A DNA stretch of 50,866 bases from a virus: positions 1 to 50,866 of IMG/VR virus record IMGVR_UViG_3300021057_000014; one strand, given 5' to 3'. A model generated the notes under the pieces. That model was not told where the DNA came from and made no database searches. It saw only the letters and a program-made list of their open reading frames with translations. A program made the translations under genes and the position numbers. Below, in pieces: positions 24,298 to 36,293 of the stretch (positions are counted from its first letter, which is position 1; every line of letters starts with the position of its first letter).

Positions 24298-25938
24298 TCA
24301 CATTCGTAGCCTCATCCCCTCCAGGGGATCTACGGGCCTATCGTCATCGCCGGTGTTGATGTCGTCTCGGTGAGGCGTAGCGCCTATCGGGCCGCTCTCC
24401 TGCCCCAGGATGTCATAGAGCGCCCCGCGCCCGTGCATGGCCTCCGCAATCGCCACCGCCGCCGCCGTCACGTCCATCTGGTCGTCGTGGCTGGCGTTGG
24501 GGAATACGGTCAGCTCCTTCATGTAGTCCCCGAGCCAGGGCGCATAGGTCGGGACGAAGAACCGCCCGTCGGCCATGAGAGGAGTCGCGCCGTAAGCGCG
24601 CGCCACCTTGTCCTTGTCGATCCGGTAGATGGCGTCTTCCTTCTGGCTGATCTCACGCACAGGGTAGCCCTTGCGGAGGAGGCTTTGAGCGATGGAGAGC
24701 TGGAAGCCGATGGTCTCCACCGCGATGAACGAAAACTTCCAATGCTGATGTACCGCGACGATTTGCTTCTCGATGTCCGGGCCCTCGATCCGGTCCCTCC
24801 AGAGATCGAGCAGGACGAGGTATGTTCCCCGATGGTGCGCGAAGGCTGCCCAAGCCGCGATCACCGTGTAGTCGGGATCGGCCTTCTCGGTGTCCTTGGT
24901 GGTAAGCGCGAGGTCCACCGTAGCGAAGCGGAGGCAGTCCATCGGGCGGAACCGGAACTCCTTGAGGTCCACCCACTCCTCGTCCCGCTCGTAGGAGCGA
25001 ATCCAGGCGCGCTTGATGATGCCGCCTTCGCTCGGGCTGGGCTCCTGGTCGAGCTGGCCGCTCGCCCCGTAAGGCCCGAGACGCTTCTTGAGATTGTCCA
25101 CGGACTCGCGGGAGAAGCGGTTCCGGTCGAGCAGCTCCCCTTCCCTCTCGCGCGGGTCCGACCAGCCGATGCTCGTCGTGCAACGCGAGGAGGGGTGGAA
25201 CTCCATCGGCAGCTTGAGGTGCACCCATCCGCCTTGCCGAAGCGCGTGCCCAGTGATGTCGCTCTCGTGGGTGCGCTGCTGGATGATGACCTCGGCGTAG
25301 CTGTTGGGATCGTTCCCTCGGGTGGACCACTGCAGGTCAAACCACGTCAGCGTACTCTCGCGCTGGACTTCGGACTCCATCTGGGTCGCATCGTTCGGGT
25401 CGTCGAGGACAAGGCGATCGCCCCCGCGCCCCGTCACCGTGCCGCCCACGGAGGTCGCCACCATGAAGCCGAGAGAGGTATTCTGGAACTCGTGCTTGAC
25501 GTTCTGATCGGTGGATAGCGTGACGTGGGGCCACCGCTTTTGAAACCATTCCGACTCGATGATGAGCCGCCGCCGGACGCTATCGCGGAAGGAGAGGTTC
25601 TGCGCGTAGCTGGCGAACATGGAGCGGATCGCGGGATTCCGCGTCCACTCCCAGCAGGGCCAGAGGACCGAGACGATGCTGGATTTCCCCGTGCGCGGAG
25701 GGACGTTGATGATGAGCTTCCGGATCTTCCCCTCGGTCACGGCCTGGAGGTGAAGACAGATCGCCTCCAGGTGCCAATTCCACTTGAGGGGCGTCGCGGG
25801 CTCGATGAGGTGCCACGCTTGTTTCACGAACTCCGCAAGCGAGCGCCTACAGAGTTCCGCTTCAACCCTCAATAGCTCTCGGCTCAACTCCTCGGTCGAG
25901 CTTGGCAAGAAGCGCCTGATAGCCTCTAAGTTCGTCAT
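24298..25938 (-). CDS. terL: Terminase large subunit
   Basis: A 546-residue packaging motor. The ATPase has Walker A in KLIINVPPRTGKSSIVSVLW (residues about 80-100) and SVGGTVTGRGGDRLVLDDPN holding the Walker B-like acidic pair. The nuclease region has LRFATVDLALTTKDTEKADPDYTVIAAW (first Asp) and DDQMDVTAAAVAIAEAM near the C-terminus. It translocates DNA into the prohead through the portal and makes the packaging cuts. Its start overlaps the end of the small subunit gene by 77 bases, longer than elsewhere in the genome, suggesting coupled synthesis of the two subunits. Confidence 0.92.
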   Translation of the reverse strand: MTNLEAIRRFLPSSTEELSRELLRVEAELCRRSLAEFVKQAWHLIEPATPLKWNWHLEAICLHLQAVTEGKIRKLIINVPPRTGKSSIVSVLWPCWEWTRNPAIRSMFASYAQNLSFRDSVRRRLIIESEWFQKRWPHVTLSTDQNVKHEFQNTSLGFMVATSVGGTVTGRGGDRLVLDDPNDATQMESEVQRESTLTWFDLQWSTRGNDPNSYAEVIIQQRTHESDITGHALRQGGWVHLKLPMEFHPSSRCTTSIGWSDPREREGELLDRNRFSRESVDNLKKRLGPYGASGQLDQEPSPSEGGIIKRAWIRSYERDEEWVDLKEFRFRPMDCLRFATVDLALTTKDTEKADPDYTVIAAWAAFAHHRGTYLVLLDLWRDRIEGPDIEKQIVAVHQHWKFSFIAVETIGFQLSIAQSLLRKGYPVREISQKEDAIYRIDKDKVARAYGATPLMADGRFFVPTYAPWLGDYMKELTVFPNASHDDQMDVTAAAVAIAEAMHGRGALYDILGQESGPIGATPHRDDINTGDDDRPVDPLEGMRLRM

Positions 25939-26302
25939 CGGTCAGATTCAGGATGTTGATGTTGACGTCCCCGTTCCCCGCAAGCGCCGCGCCGTTGAGC
26001 GTAAGGCCGAGTTCGACCTTGCCCTCCAAGCGGTCGAGGATCTCCTTAGCGAAGGGGAACTTGCCCTTCATGGCCTCTTTCACGATCACGCGCGCGAGCA
26101 TTTCGAGGTTAGTTTTCCCCGTGTTCGGGAACTCCTCCATAAGGACCTCGTAGACGGCCTCGCTCAGGGTCTTGCGCTTGGGGCGTCCTTTGGGATTGCC
26201 GGACTGTCCGGGCTTCCACTGGTACGGGCGCAGGGCAGAGACCTTCTTCTCGATGGACGCCTTCCGGTCATTGTTTTCGTACTGCTTTTCAGAGTCCGTC
26301 AT
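25862..26302 (-). CDS. terS: Putative terminase small subunit (DUF5681-type)
   Basis: A 146-residue protein with PYQWKPGQSGNPKGRPKRKT, the hallmark of the DUF5681 family usually encoded next to the large subunit. KTNLEMLARVIVKEAMKGKF and NINILNLTDDELRGYQALLA follow. Small subunits form rings that recognise the packaging site and hand DNA to the large subunit. ATG 26302 overlaps the TGA of the ParB-methyltransferase (ATGA). The phased tract 1.3 kb upstream is a possible packaging site. Confidence is moderate because sequence alone rarely proves small subunits. Confidence 0.7.
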   Translation of the reverse strand: MTDSEKQYENNDRKASIEKKVSALRPYQWKPGQSGNPKGRPKRKTLSEAVYEVLMEEFPNTGKTNLEMLARVIVKEAMKGKFPFAKEILDRLEGKVELGLTLNGAALAGNGDVNINILNLTDDELRGYQALLAKLDRGVEPRAIEG

Positions 26303-27528
26303 GCGATCTCCACCCCCGCGCGGGTGAGGTTCTTGGCCTTGAGGCCGGTGAAGTTCTGCCAGCGTTTCACGACGACATCGGCGTATTTGGGCTCGATCTC
26401 GATGGCGAAGCACTTGCGCCCGAGAGCGTGCGCGGCGATAAGCGTCGTCCCCGTCCCCGCGAAGGGCTCGTAGATATCGTCGCCCTTACCCCCGTGGTTA
26501 CGGATGGGGCGTGCCATGCACTCAAGAGGCTTCTGGGTAGAATGGGTCTTGTCGCTGTCGTCGTACTTAAGGGGGATCTCCCAGAGGGTCGACTGGGAGC
26601 GGTCCCCGCACCACTTGGCGGTTGCGCCCTCCCGGACGGCGTACCAGCACGGCTCATGCTGCCAATGGTAATGCCCGCGCGAGATCGCAAAGCGGGGCTT
26701 CGCCCAGATGATGAGCGTTCTGGGCTTAAAGCCAGCTTCAGTAAGGCCATACATCACATCCGGCACGAACCAAGAAGCGTGCCACACATAGGCGACGTCG
26801 CCTGGAAAATGTTTATAGGCCGCCGACCAGTCCACACGATTGTCATTTGAGACCTGTCCTACGCGGCGAGCCGCGTAGGAAATCGCCCCCTTCTCCGCAG
26901 CCTCGTTACGCCACTCGGGGTCGTACTCCACCCCGTAAGGCGGGTCGGTCACCATGAGGAACGGGATTGCCCCGCCCAGGACGCGCTTGACGTCCTCTTC
27001 CTTCGTGCTGTCCCCGCAGAGGAGCCTATGGGGGCCGAGTTCCCAGAGATCCCCCGGCTGAGTGACGGCTTGCTCGGGGACTTCGGGGAGCGGGTCTTTC
27101 TCCTCCACCTCCCCCGCATGGGTCCAATTGGCGATCTGCTCAAGCTCCTTCTCGGTGAAGCCCGTCAGGGTCACGTCGAGGTTCTTCTGGTCGAATTCGA
27201 GCAGGAGGTCGGCCATTGTGGCGAAGTCCCACTCGGCGAGTTCCGTGATCTTGTTGTCGGCCAGGGTGTAGAGGTCCGCGCGGTCGTCGTCCACGTCGGC
27301 CACGAGGACGGGGACATCGGTAATGCCGTGCTTCTTGAGGGCCTCCAGGCGTCCGTGTCCCGCGAGGATACGGTAGGTATCCTTCTGGACGATGATGGGG
27401 GCGAGATACCCGAAGGCTTCGATGCTGCGCGCGATGGCGTCCACCGCGTGAGCTTTGCGGGGATTCTTGGGCCAGGGCTTGAGCTTGTCCAGCGGAACGG
27501 TTTCGATCTTAGGCGGCGCGATCTGCAT
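26299..27528 (-). CDS. ParB-like nuclease domain fused to a DNA methyltransferase
   Basis: A 409-residue protein. Residues 1-120 are ParB/Srx-like: LDKLKPWPKNPRKAHAVDAI, GYLAPIIVQKDTYRILAGHG, RLEALKKHG. Residues 165-400 are an amino-methyltransferase, with DPPYGVEYDPEWRNEAAEKG (catalytic DPPY), THSTQKPLECMARPI and FAGTGTTLIAAHALGRKC (SAM-binding FxGxGT). It should add N6-adenine or N4-cytosine methyl marks, perhaps guarding phage DNA against host restriction or marking it for packaging. GGGGAAGGGGG precedes the ATG. It heads the terminase operon. Confidence 0.88.
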   Translation of the reverse strand: MQIAPPKIETVPLDKLKPWPKNPRKAHAVDAIARSIEAFGYLAPIIVQKDTYRILAGHGRLEALKKHGITDVPVLVADVDDDRADLYTLADNKITELAEWDFATMADLLLEFDQKNLDVTLTGFTEKELEQIANWTHAGEVEEKDPLPEVPEQAVTQPGDLWELGPHRLLCGDSTKEEDVKRVLGGAIPFLMVTDPPYGVEYDPEWRNEAAEKGAISYAARRVGQVSNDNRVDWSAAYKHFPGDVAYVWHASWFVPDVMYGLTEAGFKPRTLIIWAKPRFAISRGHYHWQHEPCWYAVREGATAKWCGDRSQSTLWEIPLKYDDSDKTHSTQKPLECMARPIRNHGGKGDDIYEPFAGTGTTLIAAHALGRKCFAIEIEPKYADVVVKRWQNFTGLKAKNLTRAGVEIA

Positions 27529-27591: not shown

Positions 27592-28062
27592 CTGCCGTTG
27601 CACCACACAACATAGCCTTTGCCACGCGCTGCCCAGCCGAGCAATGCCGTCGTCCCACGAAGCGGAACGATGCCGTTGCCGTACCCGACAGTGCCACGCA
27701 GTACCATTGCCTCGCGTTGCTCTACTTGGCTTTGCCACGGCTACGCTCAACACTGCCTCTGCAAAACATAACAGCACTGGGCCGTCGCTCTGCTGTTCAG
27801 CGCGCCACCCTACAACGCAGGGCCACCGCATCACACTACCGCGCCTCTGCCAGACCTAGCGCAACGCCACAATACCGCTGCCTTGCTCAACGTCACATTA
27901 CCCTCGCGATGCTAAGCGTCACCACCGCGCGGCTTTACATGGCGCAGCCACCGCTTCGCCTTACACGGCGATACCATCGCCCCACCCTGCGGATCATCAC
28001 GTTGCCTTAGCTGCACAGTGCTACGCCTTGCCCGCGCAATGCAACACTCAGCGCCGCGCTAC
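27592..28062. repeat. Helically phased 5.2-bp quasi-repeat tract (non-coding, about 470 bp)
   Basis: No gene fits here. Reading the plus strand, a purine followed by C recurs at fixed 5-bp steps with a 6-bp step inserted after every 4-8 units, from 27595 to 28062. By hand count, 90 intervals span 467 bp (mean 5.19 bp), and 88 of 91 expected positions have the RC dinucleotide. The three exceptions are at about 652, 798 and 995 in the last three digits. Two steps equal about 10.4 bp, one turn of B-DNA. The tract starts at the TAG of the 209-residue gene and ends next to a seven-A run at 27585-27591. Because it has few stops, several false reading frames cross it. Confidence 0.85.
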
Positions 28063-28692
28063 CTATGCGCTCTTCGTGAACTCCAACTTGAAATCCGCCC
28101 GCCCCCACCCGGCGTTACGCCACTGCCCGAAGCCCTTCCCGTCGCGCCCGTACTCCAAGCACGCCTCGATGATCCGCTCCGGGTGCTTGAACGGATGCCC
28201 GTCGTAGATGCGGAGAGAGCAATCGAGATATGTCCCCGCGTTCACGAACTCCGAGAGAGCGAGGCTGACGCGCGGCCCCTGCATGGTCATGGCCCGGAGG
28301 GGGCGCTCGTGGACACCGTGCGGGTCCTTGATGGCCGAACCGTCAGCAGCCTTGAGGTAGAGCCGCCGGGGCGTGATGAAGAGGTAGTTGTCGAGCTTGC
28401 TCCGGAGGTTCTTCTCGCCCAGCATGTCCTTCAGGATGTTCGACGCCTCCTTGAAGAAGCCCTTGATGGAGTAGTCGTAGAGGAAGAGCCCCTGCGCGTC
28501 TCGGTGGAAGCCCGTGCAGCCTTTCTTCTCGTCCACCTCGGGGAGCGTCTCGACCTCGCTCTCGGTCTCGGAGAGCGCGTCGGCGCGCTTGACCTTCAGG
28601 CTCTCGATGTACTTGGAGTAGATGTCCGCGCTCAGGGGAGCCGACCCGAGCAGGGGCTCGATGAACGTCAACCGGACCTTCGCATCAATCAC
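28063..28692 (-). CDS. Phage protein with RAMP-like C-terminal glycine loop, 209 aa
   Basis: Starts at GTG 28692 with AAGGAGG 6 bases upstream, overlapping the previous stop. KVRLTFIEPLLGSAPLSADI (residues 5-24) is a strand-loop typical of the family. KKGCTGFHRDAQGLFLYDYSIKGFFKEASN (about 58-87) is the most conserved-looking block, and YGRDGKGFGQWRNAGWGRAD is a glycine-rich loop near the end. From memory I know similar proteins in phages of anaerobic Firmicutes, with no established function. The G-rich loop and ferredoxin-like pattern recall RAMP/Cas7-type RNA-binding proteins, which is an inference. The phased tract begins right at its stop codon. Confidence 0.65.
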   Translation of the reverse strand: MIDAKVRLTFIEPLLGSAPLSADIYSKYIESLKVKRADALSETESEVETLPEVDEKKGCTGFHRDAQGLFLYDYSIKGFFKEASNILKDMLGEKNLRSKLDNYLFITPRRLYLKAADGSAIKDPHGVHERPLRAMTMQGPRVSLALSEFVNAGTYLDCSLRIYDGHPFKHPERIIEACLEYGRDGKGFGQWRNAGWGRADFKLEFTKSA

Positions 28693-34172: not shown

Positions 34173-35524
34173 CTCAGCACCTCCTCTTTAACCACCCGCT
34201 CCCCGAAACTCCCGTCCGGGCGCACTTCGTGGAAGCGTCCGGCGGGCTTGTCGAACATGAGATCCATCTCGAAAATCTGACCGTTTCGATTCTTGGCGAT
34301 GGTGAGGACGCGCGGCTCGACCCGCTTGTATTCCTCGTCCCGCTCCCGCCGCCAGAGGAACACCACGTTATCGGCGTCTTGTTCAATGGCCCCGGAGTCC
34401 CGGAGATCCGCGAGCCTTGGCCGGTCGTGTTCGCTCGACGTCCCGCGCTTCTCCACCTCGCGGTTTAGCTGGGCGAGGAGGAGGATCGGTACCCTCCGCT
34501 CGAGGGCCAACTGCTTGAGCGCCCGCGTCGTGGACGCGAGGGAGAGATCGTTCCGCTCGGCCTTCTCGTGCTTCATGAGGCCCAAGTAGTCGATCACGAC
34601 GGACGCCACGCGCGGCTGGGTCGCCTGGGCATGGGCAACAGCGATAGACACGTTGAGCGCCGAGACGCTTGAACTCGGATGGATCAATATGGGCTTCTGC
34701 GCCACCTCTCCCGCCGCAAGCGTGATCCGCGACATGGCGTCGTCGTCCACCCGCTCCCGCCGCCAGTCGTCGAAGGGCACCCGTGCCAGTTCGCAGACGA
34801 ATTGCTGGGTCAAGACCTTGGGCGTGACTTCGAGGGAGAACACCACCACCGCCCCCTGTTCGGCGGCGACGGAGACGAGCTGCCGCATGAAGGTCGATTT
34901 CCCGCTCCCAGGGCGTCCCGCCAGGATCGTCACCTCTCCGGGCTCGAAGAGGTTGATCGCGCTGTCGAGGCGCGAGAGCTTGGTCACGACGGCGTAATCG
35001 CTCCGCTTCTGGGGCTCCATCGCCTCCCAGACGATCTCGGAGACCGGGACGAGTCCGCGCTGCCCCTCCCGCTCCGCGAGCGCCGCGACCAAGCGCCCCA
35101 CGATTCCCGCCGCGTCGAGCTTCCCTTCCGCCGGGGCCGCGACCTCCCGCTGGAGGTCCCCGAGCGCCGCCGCGACCTTGCGGCGCGTATGGAACTCCTG
35201 GACGTCCTGGGCGAACTTCACCGCCCCGGCGAGATCCGGACAGGTCTCCATGAGGACGCCGAGGTATTCGACGCCACCGGCCTTGACCAGCTCCCCGCGC
35301 CGCCGGAGTTCGACGATGACCTCCAAGGCCCCGAAGGCGCTTCCCTTGGCAAAGAGGTCGTAGAGCGCGCGGTAGATGGTCTGGTGGCGCTCGTCGGCCA
35401 GCATCTCGGCCCGGACAGCCTGGACCACCTCCGCGCGCCCCGCCTCCGTCTGGATGAGCGCCCCGAGGAGCGCCGCTTCGCTCTCGACGGAGGAAATGGC
35501 GTTAGATTTTGGGGATTGCAGCAT
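34169..35524 (-). CDS. dnaB: Replicative DNA helicase (DnaB-like)
   Basis: A 451-residue protein. The N-terminal helical domain begins with SSVESEAALLGALIQTEAGR. The RecA-like domain has Walker A in VTILAGRPGSGKSTFMRQLV (residues about 205-220), QGAVVVFSLEVTPKVLTQQF, Walker B in PRVASVVIDYLGLMKHEKAE, and LLLAQLNREVEKRGTSSEHD, RPRLADLRDSGAIEQDADNV. These are the DnaB motifs H1-H4 in order. It unwinds DNA at the phage fork. It follows the initiator gene (23-base overlap), as in lambda O-P-like layouts. Confidence 0.93.
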   Translation of the reverse strand: MLQSPKSNAISSVESEAALLGALIQTEAGRAEVVQAVRAEMLADERHQTIYRALYDLFAKGSAFGALEVIVELRRRGELVKAGGVEYLGVLMETCPDLAGAVKFAQDVQEFHTRRKVAAALGDLQREVAAPAEGKLDAAGIVGRLVAALAEREGQRGLVPVSEIVWEAMEPQKRSDYAVVTKLSRLDSAINLFEPGEVTILAGRPGSGKSTFMRQLVSVAAEQGAVVVFSLEVTPKVLTQQFVCELARVPFDDWRRERVDDDAMSRITLAAGEVAQKPILIHPSSSVSALNVSIAVAHAQATQPRVASVVIDYLGLMKHEKAERNDLSLASTTRALKQLALERRVPILLLAQLNREVEKRGTSSEHDRPRLADLRDSGAIEQDADNVVFLWRRERDEEYKRVEPRVLTIAKNRNGQIFEMDLMFDKPAGRFHEVRPDGSFGERVVKEEVLR

Positions 35525-36293
35525 CTCTTCTCCTCACAAACTCGGCGTCGTCCTGCTTCTCCCTGCTCGGGCAGAACGGGTCGATGAATTCCCAGATCTT
35601 CTTGCCCCCGCACGAGGCCGCGCTCATGGAAGCCTCGTCGATGGCCCGGAGGGAGGCTCCACGGGCGACAGCGGCTCTGATGTGGGCCTCCCCGCGCTCC
35701 AGGCTGATCGGACATCCCCCGTTCCGGTTGAACTGGGTGACGATCCGAGCTTCCGGGGTCAGGCCGGGAAGGATAGGGGCTTTTTCCACCGGCGCGGGCG
35801 CGCCTTCTTCCCCTTCTTCTCTTTCTTCTAATTCTTCTCTTTCTTGTTTGTTGTTAGGTGCCTGTTGGGTTGCTGTTAGGCTCCTGTTGGGTGCCTGTTG
35901 GTTGCCTGTTAGATTTCGTGTTAGGTCGGAGGCTCTGGAATCGCTGTAATTCGCTAAGTTCTGGTAGAAGTCGTACTTAGGAATGGTATAGAGCGTGTAG
36001 TGCCCTGTTGGCTTTCGTGTTAGAAATCCGACTTTTTCCAGATGCTTTACGGAAGTACGCGTTTTTTGGAGCGATAAACCGCAAGCCTCTGCAAAGTCCT
36101 CCCAGGACCGGACGAACTGGCCGCGCTCAATCACCATGTCCTTTGTGCCGTCAAACCACTTCTTCGGCTGCCAGTTCGCAAGGCAGATGCACGTCATGGC
36201 GACCACCCGGTCCTCGGCCCGCATGGTCCAAAGGCTGCTGTTGAGGACCGCCCGAGCCACCAGGACCGCACCATCAGGAATTTCGGCTGCCAT
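35502..36293 (-). CDS. Replication initiator / helicase-loader-like protein with internal origin
   Basis: A 263-residue protein. MAAEIPDGAVLVARAVLNSS and WQPKKWFDGTKDMVIERGQF, VRSWEDFAEACGLSLQKTRT, SVKHLEKVGFLTRKPTGHYT form an N-terminal winged-helix domain, like lambda O and phage replisome organisers. A Gln/Asn linker and a Glu-rich stretch (EREELEEREEGEEGAPAP) follow. The C-terminal part is helical and may load DnaB. The linker is encoded by tandem 11-bp iterons. It probably binds those repeats in its own gene, opens the AT-rich flank and recruits the helicase encoded next. Confidence 0.75.
   Translation of the reverse strand: MAAEIPDGAVLVARAVLNSSLWTMRAEDRVVAMTCICLANWQPKKWFDGTKDMVIERGQFVRSWEDFAEACGLSLQKTRTSVKHLEKVGFLTRKPTGHYTLYTIPKYDFYQNLANYSDSRASDLTRNLTGNQQAPNRSLTATQQAPNNKQEREELEEREEGEEGAPAPVEKAPILPGLTPEARIVTQFNRNGGCPISLERGEAHIRAAVARGASLRAIDEASMSAASCGGKKIWEFIDPFCPSREKQDDAEFVRRRDAAIPKI
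35815..36029. other. Candidate replication origin: iterons plus AT-rich polypyrimidine tract
   Basis: Five tandem 11-bp units with consensus TGTTRGGTGCC start at 35852, 35863, 35874, 35885 and 35896. Two diverged units follow at 35907 and 35919. A matching pair, TGTTGGCTTTCG plus TGTTAGAAATCC, lies at 36006 and 36018. The bases 35815-35850 are an AT-rich, almost pure pyrimidine run (polypurine on the other strand), suitable for unwinding. The arrangement inside the initiator gene mirrors phage lambda ori. Confidence 0.75.

Follow-up and report, generated by a model that had tools for sequence, protein, structure and literature searches.

The window, the whole 50,866-nt stretch of an IMG/VR virus record analysed here, carries a non-coding tract in which a two-base anchor recurs every 5 or 6 bp and which directly follows a gene for a 209-aa protein. 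The tract and this gene very probably form a guide array with its RAMP protein, of the type named VIPR (Viral Interference Programmable Repeat) in a preprint of April 2026 on phage SUSP1 and a P. fulva prophage (bioRxiv 2026.04.26.720920, PMC13142463). We reached the locus independently of that preprint. The earlier note on this DNA had known no named element of such a design; VIPR is a published relative.

According to the accessible part of the preprint, VIPR consists of a phage RAMP (Vipr) and of vrRNAs with 9-16 GGY/NN repeats; it reads dsDNA, skipping one target base per repeat, and acts against competing elements (PMC13142463). In the same part, the SUSP1 repeat is 5 nt long and other VIPR types have a 'related consensus'. 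The vrRNAs of the SUSP1 clade carry an invariable structured 3′ tail, and a vap accessory gene is 'typical' of VIPR and not obligatory (PMC13142463).

The features of the locus in the window are as follows.

27598..28062, minus strand: predicted guide-RNA (vrRNA-like) array, about 90 repeats G-Y-N-N-N in 17 modules
28063..28692, minus strand: vipr-like gene for a 209-aa single-domain RAMP (Cas7-type), predicted from profile and structure matches
27615..27620, minus strand: 6-bp delimiting unit, an example (plus-strand GCCTTT), from coordinates and the consensus RCCNYY
27646-27651, 27672-27677, 27703-27708, 27734-27739, 27755-27760, minus strand: more 6-bp units
27781-27786, 27822-27827, 27843-27848, 27874-27879, 27900-27905, minus strand: more 6-bp units
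27921-27926, 27947-27952, 27973-27978, 28004-28009, 28030-28035, minus strand: more 6-bp units
27787..27827, minus strand: longest module of the window array, 8 repeats, which would decode to CCTGTTAGGGGCGCTACAAGAGAC
26299..27528, minus strand: gene for a ParB-N and N6/N4 DNA methyltransferase, downstream neighbour, listed as context and not as part of the system

Rhythm and units of the tract

Chaining by dynamic programming, with 5 or 6 bp allowed per step, placed 90 anchors between 27600 and 28061, and 87 of them were RC, close to the 88 of 91 in the earlier note. Among the steps of this chain, 73 were 5 bp and 16 were 6 bp long (mean, 5.18-5.19 bp). The chain score of 66.5 was far above those of dinucleotide-preserving shuffles that were allowed identical use of 6-bp steps (mean 5.2, maximum 16, n = 300). 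The rhythm is therefore real, and the signal held against the very control that the earlier note had proposed for it. On both strands of the whole window, a second tract was not found, the next best chain scoring about 6. Tandem Repeats Finder reported a single weak 26-bp array (score 64, 27862-27922). Rfam gave no match on the tract and one sub-threshold match, inside the vipr gene.

The 6-bp steps had a consensus of their own, RCC-N-Y-Y followed by GC (YY mostly). Base 3 was C in 16 of 16 steps, and the next anchor began with G in 16 of 16. The 6-bp units are thus more than plain insertions. On the minus strand, the tract reads (G-Y-N-N-N)n, interrupted every 4-8 repeats by the 6-nt G-Y-R-R-N-G. 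It extends the 209-aa gene in the 3′ direction on that strand, the stop codon at 28063 abutting it. The earlier description of a non-coding tract that begins at the stop of one gene, with strict anchors and freely varying bases between them, was correct on each of these points.

Array anatomy was analyzed in a set of 160 strictly filtered arrays with 15,823 units, none of them inside vipr. The first anchor base was G in 95% of the 5-nt units, and the second was C in 57%, T in 22% and A in 17%, the choice being typical of each phage. The three bases after the anchor were variable. The 6-nt unit was G-C/T-R-R-N-G, with R at about 80% and the final G at 90%, and modules between these units mostly had 4-8 repeats. 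GGY was found only at module starts; the repeat is G(Y/H)NNN and not strict GGY/NN. Relative to the gene, 117 of the arrays were downstream and 43 upstream. No common tail was apparent by eye at array ends in the sequences downstream of 45 arrays.

Individual loci differed in anchor and size. The second anchor was GA at 77-79% in L176 and L156 and GT at 84-90% in L149, L136 and L073, while GC prevailed in most. This phage-specific second base may track co-evolution with the base-reading pocket of the protein. The array of L045 (729-3899) spans about 3.2 kb, has more than 600 anchors and contains the vipr gene embedded inside it; together with the 1.6-kb array of L044 (3519-5079), it is among the largest putative guide stores found.

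The RAMP protein and its link to the array

Searches with a single sequence gave nothing, so that a family profile was needed. With the 209-aa protein alone, phmmer against PDB returned only a chance match, and Pfam and PHROGs returned none. For the family, these two databases gave no more than borderline RAMP and Cas6 matches and four weak, hardly informative PHROGs. A 46-member family profile matched type VII Cas7 (E 2.7e-4) and Csm4 (E 2.5e-3) in PDB, with a weak match to SUSP1 Vipr (36pp_D, E 1.6). When the family was aligned with phage SUSP1 Vipr by hhalign, the match (E 2.7e-4) ran across the glycine-rich loop, which is G-F-G-Q-W-R-N-A-G-W-G-R in the 209-aa protein. PADLOC reported Cas7_IIId (2.5e-5), and Cas7_IIId and Csm3 for several family members. 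An AlphaFold2 model of the 209-aa protein had a mean pLDDT of 88.8, and its top Foldseek matches were type VII Cas7 and Csm3 chains, with E from 7e-9 (type VII Cas7). Judged by these profiles and this model, the 209-aa protein is a Cas7-type RAMP and corresponds to the single small phage RAMP of VIPR, which has an RRM core and a G-loop.

The link between this gene and the array was examined from both sides. A forward scan of IMG/VR with a pattern of the rhythm alone (two 26-bp units, no protein) matched 62 stretches. Nearly all of them formed long chains of 0.1-3.2 kb with 5- and 6-bp steps only, and many had GC at practically every anchor. Simple ORF picking placed a protein family of about 200 aa, to which the 209-aa RAMP of the window belongs, beside the tract at no fewer than 31 loci, and an HMM search did so at most loci. 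In the opposite direction, the protein alignment served as the query: IMG/VR yielded 369 relatives, 80 of which were retrieved, and bacterial and archaeal genomes yielded 73 loci. When viruses and bacterial and archaeal genomes were pooled, duplicates included, 203 of 206 loci had an array (0.1-3.2 kb) within 3.5 kb of the RAMP gene by G-anchor chain scoring. Scoring of GY only had lost the arrays with GA anchors and left 52 loci apparently without a tract; G-chain scoring recovered all but 3. Because many loci came from the protein search alone, the link between gene and array is not circular. The mean step ranged from 5.08 to 5.31 among sister arrays, and the anchors were strand-specific and asymmetric in many arrays.

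No gene family was found at a constant place beside vipr among 182 distinct loci. The ParB-N methyltransferase had no constant position in the relatives. A family of HTH repressor-like proteins was near vipr at 35 of the 182 distinct loci, mostly on the opposite strand; other recurrent neighbors at these loci were an SSB-like protein, a DnaB-like helicase and a RecT-like protein. The set of recurrent neighbors is that of a temperate-phage early region. Two vipr loci in JAGCAN010000001.1 (L179 and L180), about 48 kb apart, had equal tblastn scores and array summaries and are perhaps a duplicated prophage. In the window, a DUF5681 protein (25862-26329, minus strand) is encoded between the ParB-methyltransferase and the terminase large subunit, immediately ahead of the latter, and is likely to be the small terminase or a packaging partner. 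Also in the window, a 22-bp tandem repeat (35848-35926; 3.5 copies; 11-bp sub-repeat TGTTGGGTTCC) lies inside a gene for a DnaD-like helicase loader (35502-36293, minus strand).

The earlier note had taken the spacing for half a turn of DNA and had considered a terminase pac site or a helix-phased platform for DNA wrapping. The position upstream of the methyltransferase and TerL genes in this one window and the mean step of about 5.2 agree with such a DNA element. However, the constant partner across the 206 loci was the RAMP gene, and a constant association with terS or terL was not found elsewhere. The spacing differs between phages over the range given above, and the anchors are specific to one strand with respect to the neighboring RAMP gene. 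Since the mean spacing is set by the frequency of the 6-nt unit, its match to a half turn is coincidental, and a DNA element of either kind is highly improbable. A functionless decayed tandem repeat, or a mutational microsatellite, is hardly credible: the weak 26-bp array reported by Tandem Repeats Finder would fit it, but the inter-anchor bases share no ancestor, unrelated phages retain 90-100% of the anchors along as much as 3.2 kb, and the link to the gene is near-universal. Of the interpretation in the earlier note, the non-coding, anchored and RNA-template part was upheld, its hint at an RNA scaffold or a polymer-binding role being right, whereas the parts on DNA pitch and on a pac site were not.

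Reading of the triplets and the decoded guides

If guides are copied from natural DNA, neighboring target bases should keep genomic neighbor statistics across the anchors. On this rationale, 9,307 junctions from the 160 strictly filtered arrays, with vipr-internal units excluded, were compared with within-array permutations. For neighboring triplets, the match to genomic trinucleotide pairs had z 4.5 at gap 0; it was not clear at gap 1 (z 2.2) or beyond, and reversed triplet order gave z -0.5. Triplets two apart were fitted best by gap 3 (z 2.1) and triplets three apart by gap 6 (z 2.1), as contiguity predicts. Between the last and first variable bases of adjacent repeats, z was 5.1 at lag 1 and 2.0 at lag 2.

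Between the last 5-nt unit and the 6-nt unit that follows it, the link was kept (z 3.9); beyond the 6-nt unit it was lost (z -0.6), suggesting that the modules are separate targets. When the junctions were divided by anchor, contiguity was seen at GC (z 4.0) and GT (z 3.6) and was absent at GA (z 0.7). Its presence at both GC and GT excludes avoidance of the TGCA palindrome as an explanation. The loci from genomes showed weak contiguity (z 1.7), and the signal per junction was small. A scan of reading rules (subsets of the N positions combined with skips of 0-3) against a small DNA set gave no signal. On these statistics, a modular code with zero skip, in which the triplets are contiguous in the target, is probable.

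Two kinds of motif, both chosen after decoded examples had been viewed, were counted in the modules read contiguously: a strong Shine-Dalgarno sequence with ATG was present in 12 modules, compared with 4.8±1.7 in 100 shuffles (maximum 10) and 4 in reversed order, and TTGACA was present in 28 modules, compared with 14.1±3.4 in shuffles, its complement being present in 22 compared with 10.5±3.0. Examples of the former are AAGGAGGATACCAAATATGCAAAC, AACAGGAGGTAGAAGATGACAAGT and GAATAGGAGACCAGCATGAGTACTCTGAAT. Reading with a skip of 1 gave no module with Shine-Dalgarno and ATG, a weak point since skipped positions were scored as non-matching. In an unbiased ranking of k-mers, the top 5-mers included TGACA, TTGAC, GGAGG and AGGAG, and the ten leading 6-mers included both TTGACA and TGTCAA. 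Stop codons were depleted across repeat borders (4.578 open frames per module versus 4.440±0.016), and the dicodon coding score of the decoded modules showed no excess. The decoded motifs suggest that the guides are aimed at promoters and gene starts, which they would silence.

Exact scans of IMG/VR with single modules gave no secure target. No target was found when 46 modules were compared by BLAST with 50,697 phage records, or when 350 genomes of a host family were searched with one module. In 5.8 Mb of DNA, exact module matches were not above chance, and module matches showed no clustering. For the longest module of the window, the first 21 nt had no exact match in IMG/VR. A pair of modules in L009 (one C/T difference) matched one IMG/VR sequence exactly over 18 nt, at the Shine-Dalgarno sequence and ATG of a 51-residue ORF; by our own estimate, about 1-3 matches of this pattern are expected by chance.

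Several candidates were rejected. The phage of L221 was considered as a target because of this exact module match at a start codon; this is about chance level, and the remaining modules of L009 gave no match to it. A serine-integrase target was considered from homologous 'first modules' of L047, L030 and L122, which had synonymous changes and one IMG/VR match in a recombinase gene. This was an artefact because the matching units belong to the 3′-terminal part of the vipr coding sequence, and vipr-internal units were therefore excluded later. Palindromic arms of 7 or more numbered 10 in the decoded modules versus 3.2 in shuffles, counts that are nested and of which two come from one poor-quality array. 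Palindromic 'operators' were thus taken as a hint only, the strongest being absent from its own host genome. In L148, modules 5 and 10 decode to perfect inverted repeats, GCTATCGGA-AA-TCCGATAGC and TTCGTAATATATTACGAA, a symmetry that the array sequence lacks before decoding; it is possible that they are repressor operators.

The array could also be read under the published rule of VIPR, with a 1-nt skip. Two of the three variable bases would then pair, and the third would be a relaxed first G of GGY. The repeat length shared with SUSP1 and the 'related consensus' of other types in the accessible part of the preprint favor this reading (PMC13142463), and the GY/NNN family is plausibly one of the seven VIPR types mentioned there. 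Yet a free or skipped base should leave no adjacency signal, and such a signal was found at lag 1 more than at lag 2 and at gap 0 more than at gap 1. The spacing of Shine-Dalgarno and ATG, seen in the contiguous reading only, counts weakly in the same direction, given the scoring of skipped positions. We consider a skip of 1 in these arrays unlikely. Alternatively, the array could encode no target and serve RAMP proteins as a decoy, a scaffold RNA or an anti-CRISPR-like sponge. Long continuous arrays beside a protein expected to bind them would suit such a role, as would the absence of a target from the 5.8 Mb of DNA, the phage records and the host-family genomes searched. A scaffold, however, needs no genomic neighbor statistics, no promoter or ribosome-binding-site motifs, and no boundaries at which these signals end, and we regard it as quite improbable.

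Relation to known systems and proposed working

As a positive control, the SUSP1 sequence showed GGYNN arrays adjoining its Vipr gene. The loci described here resemble VIPR in several respects. A single small phage RAMP adjoins non-coding tandem pentanucleotide repeats; these are long, have fixed anchors and flank the vipr-like gene, and arrays are possible on both sides of it. The anchors are G-pyrimidine, with hypervariable bases between them in a 5-nt repeat, and the protein has the same glycine-loop region. Unlike VIPR, whose repeat is GGY/NN, these loci have GY/NNN, with C, T or A as the second base according to clade. Their arrays are long, continuous and of many modules with 6-nt delimiters, whereas VIPR has separate vrRNAs of about 100 nt with 9-16 repeats and a structured tail. 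The statistics here favor contiguous reading of the target, in contrast to the 1-nt skip of VIPR, and no conserved vap gene was found among the 182 distinct loci. The minus-strand GY-NNN, with GGY at module starts only, points to a VIPR-like working with a different repeat. The class was already described; the code variant appears to be new, and figures S17 and S18 of the preprint (related consensus, staggered arrays) may already hold the GY/NNN type.

With class 1 CRISPR effectors (the Cas7/Csm3 backbone; type VII, III-A and III-D), the family shares the RAMP fold, the glycine-rich loop and, presumably, a guide-RNA filament with a fixed step per subunit. The step of Cas7 is 6 nt per subunit. 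Unlike those effectors, the loci here have no CRISPR array, cas operon or other RAMPs, and the repeat anchors stand inside the guide every 5 nt. The window and its relatives each have a single RAMP gene and share no further gene in a fixed position, which places the family outside class 1 CRISPR-Cas. TIGR-Tas likewise is phage-borne RNA-guided DNA targeting, as predicted here, with arrays of short guides. Its Tas proteins reportedly have a box C/D snoRNP-like (Nop) domain, and to our knowledge it has neither a RAMP nor a 5-nt anchor code.

We propose the following working. The vipr gene and the array, which lies directly behind it, would be co-transcribed from the minus strand. The Cas7-like protein probably carries the guides: Vipr subunits would polymerise along the RNA, with one G-Y anchor (5 nt) held by every subunit and its N-N-N presented. 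The 6-nt G-Y-R-R-N-G unit would close each guide module of about 4-8 repeats, and a module would address 12-24 uninterrupted nucleotides of the target, with 5 nt of RNA for 3 nt of DNA. Bound to promoters, ribosome-binding sites or gene starts in the DNA of competing phages, or of the host, the RNP would silence them. It seems somewhat probable that these loci form a large and widespread branch of VIPR with a zero-skip GY/NNN code, each array holding tens of independent 12-24-nt guides that end in G-Y-R-R-N-G and for the most part address promoters, ribosome-binding sites and gene starts of rival elements.

The puzzling 5-bp rhythm would thus be the predicted guide store of a recently reported RNA-guided class that has been proposed as CRISPR ancestors. 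Contiguous triplets and module ends would provide a decoding rule, making predicted targets readable for hundreds of environmental phages. A one-protein system with contiguous reading would, if true, be easier to programme than one with the published skip. In that case, RAMP proteins would read in two ways, with a skip of 1 or of 0, on the same geometry of 5 nt of RNA to 3 nt of DNA.
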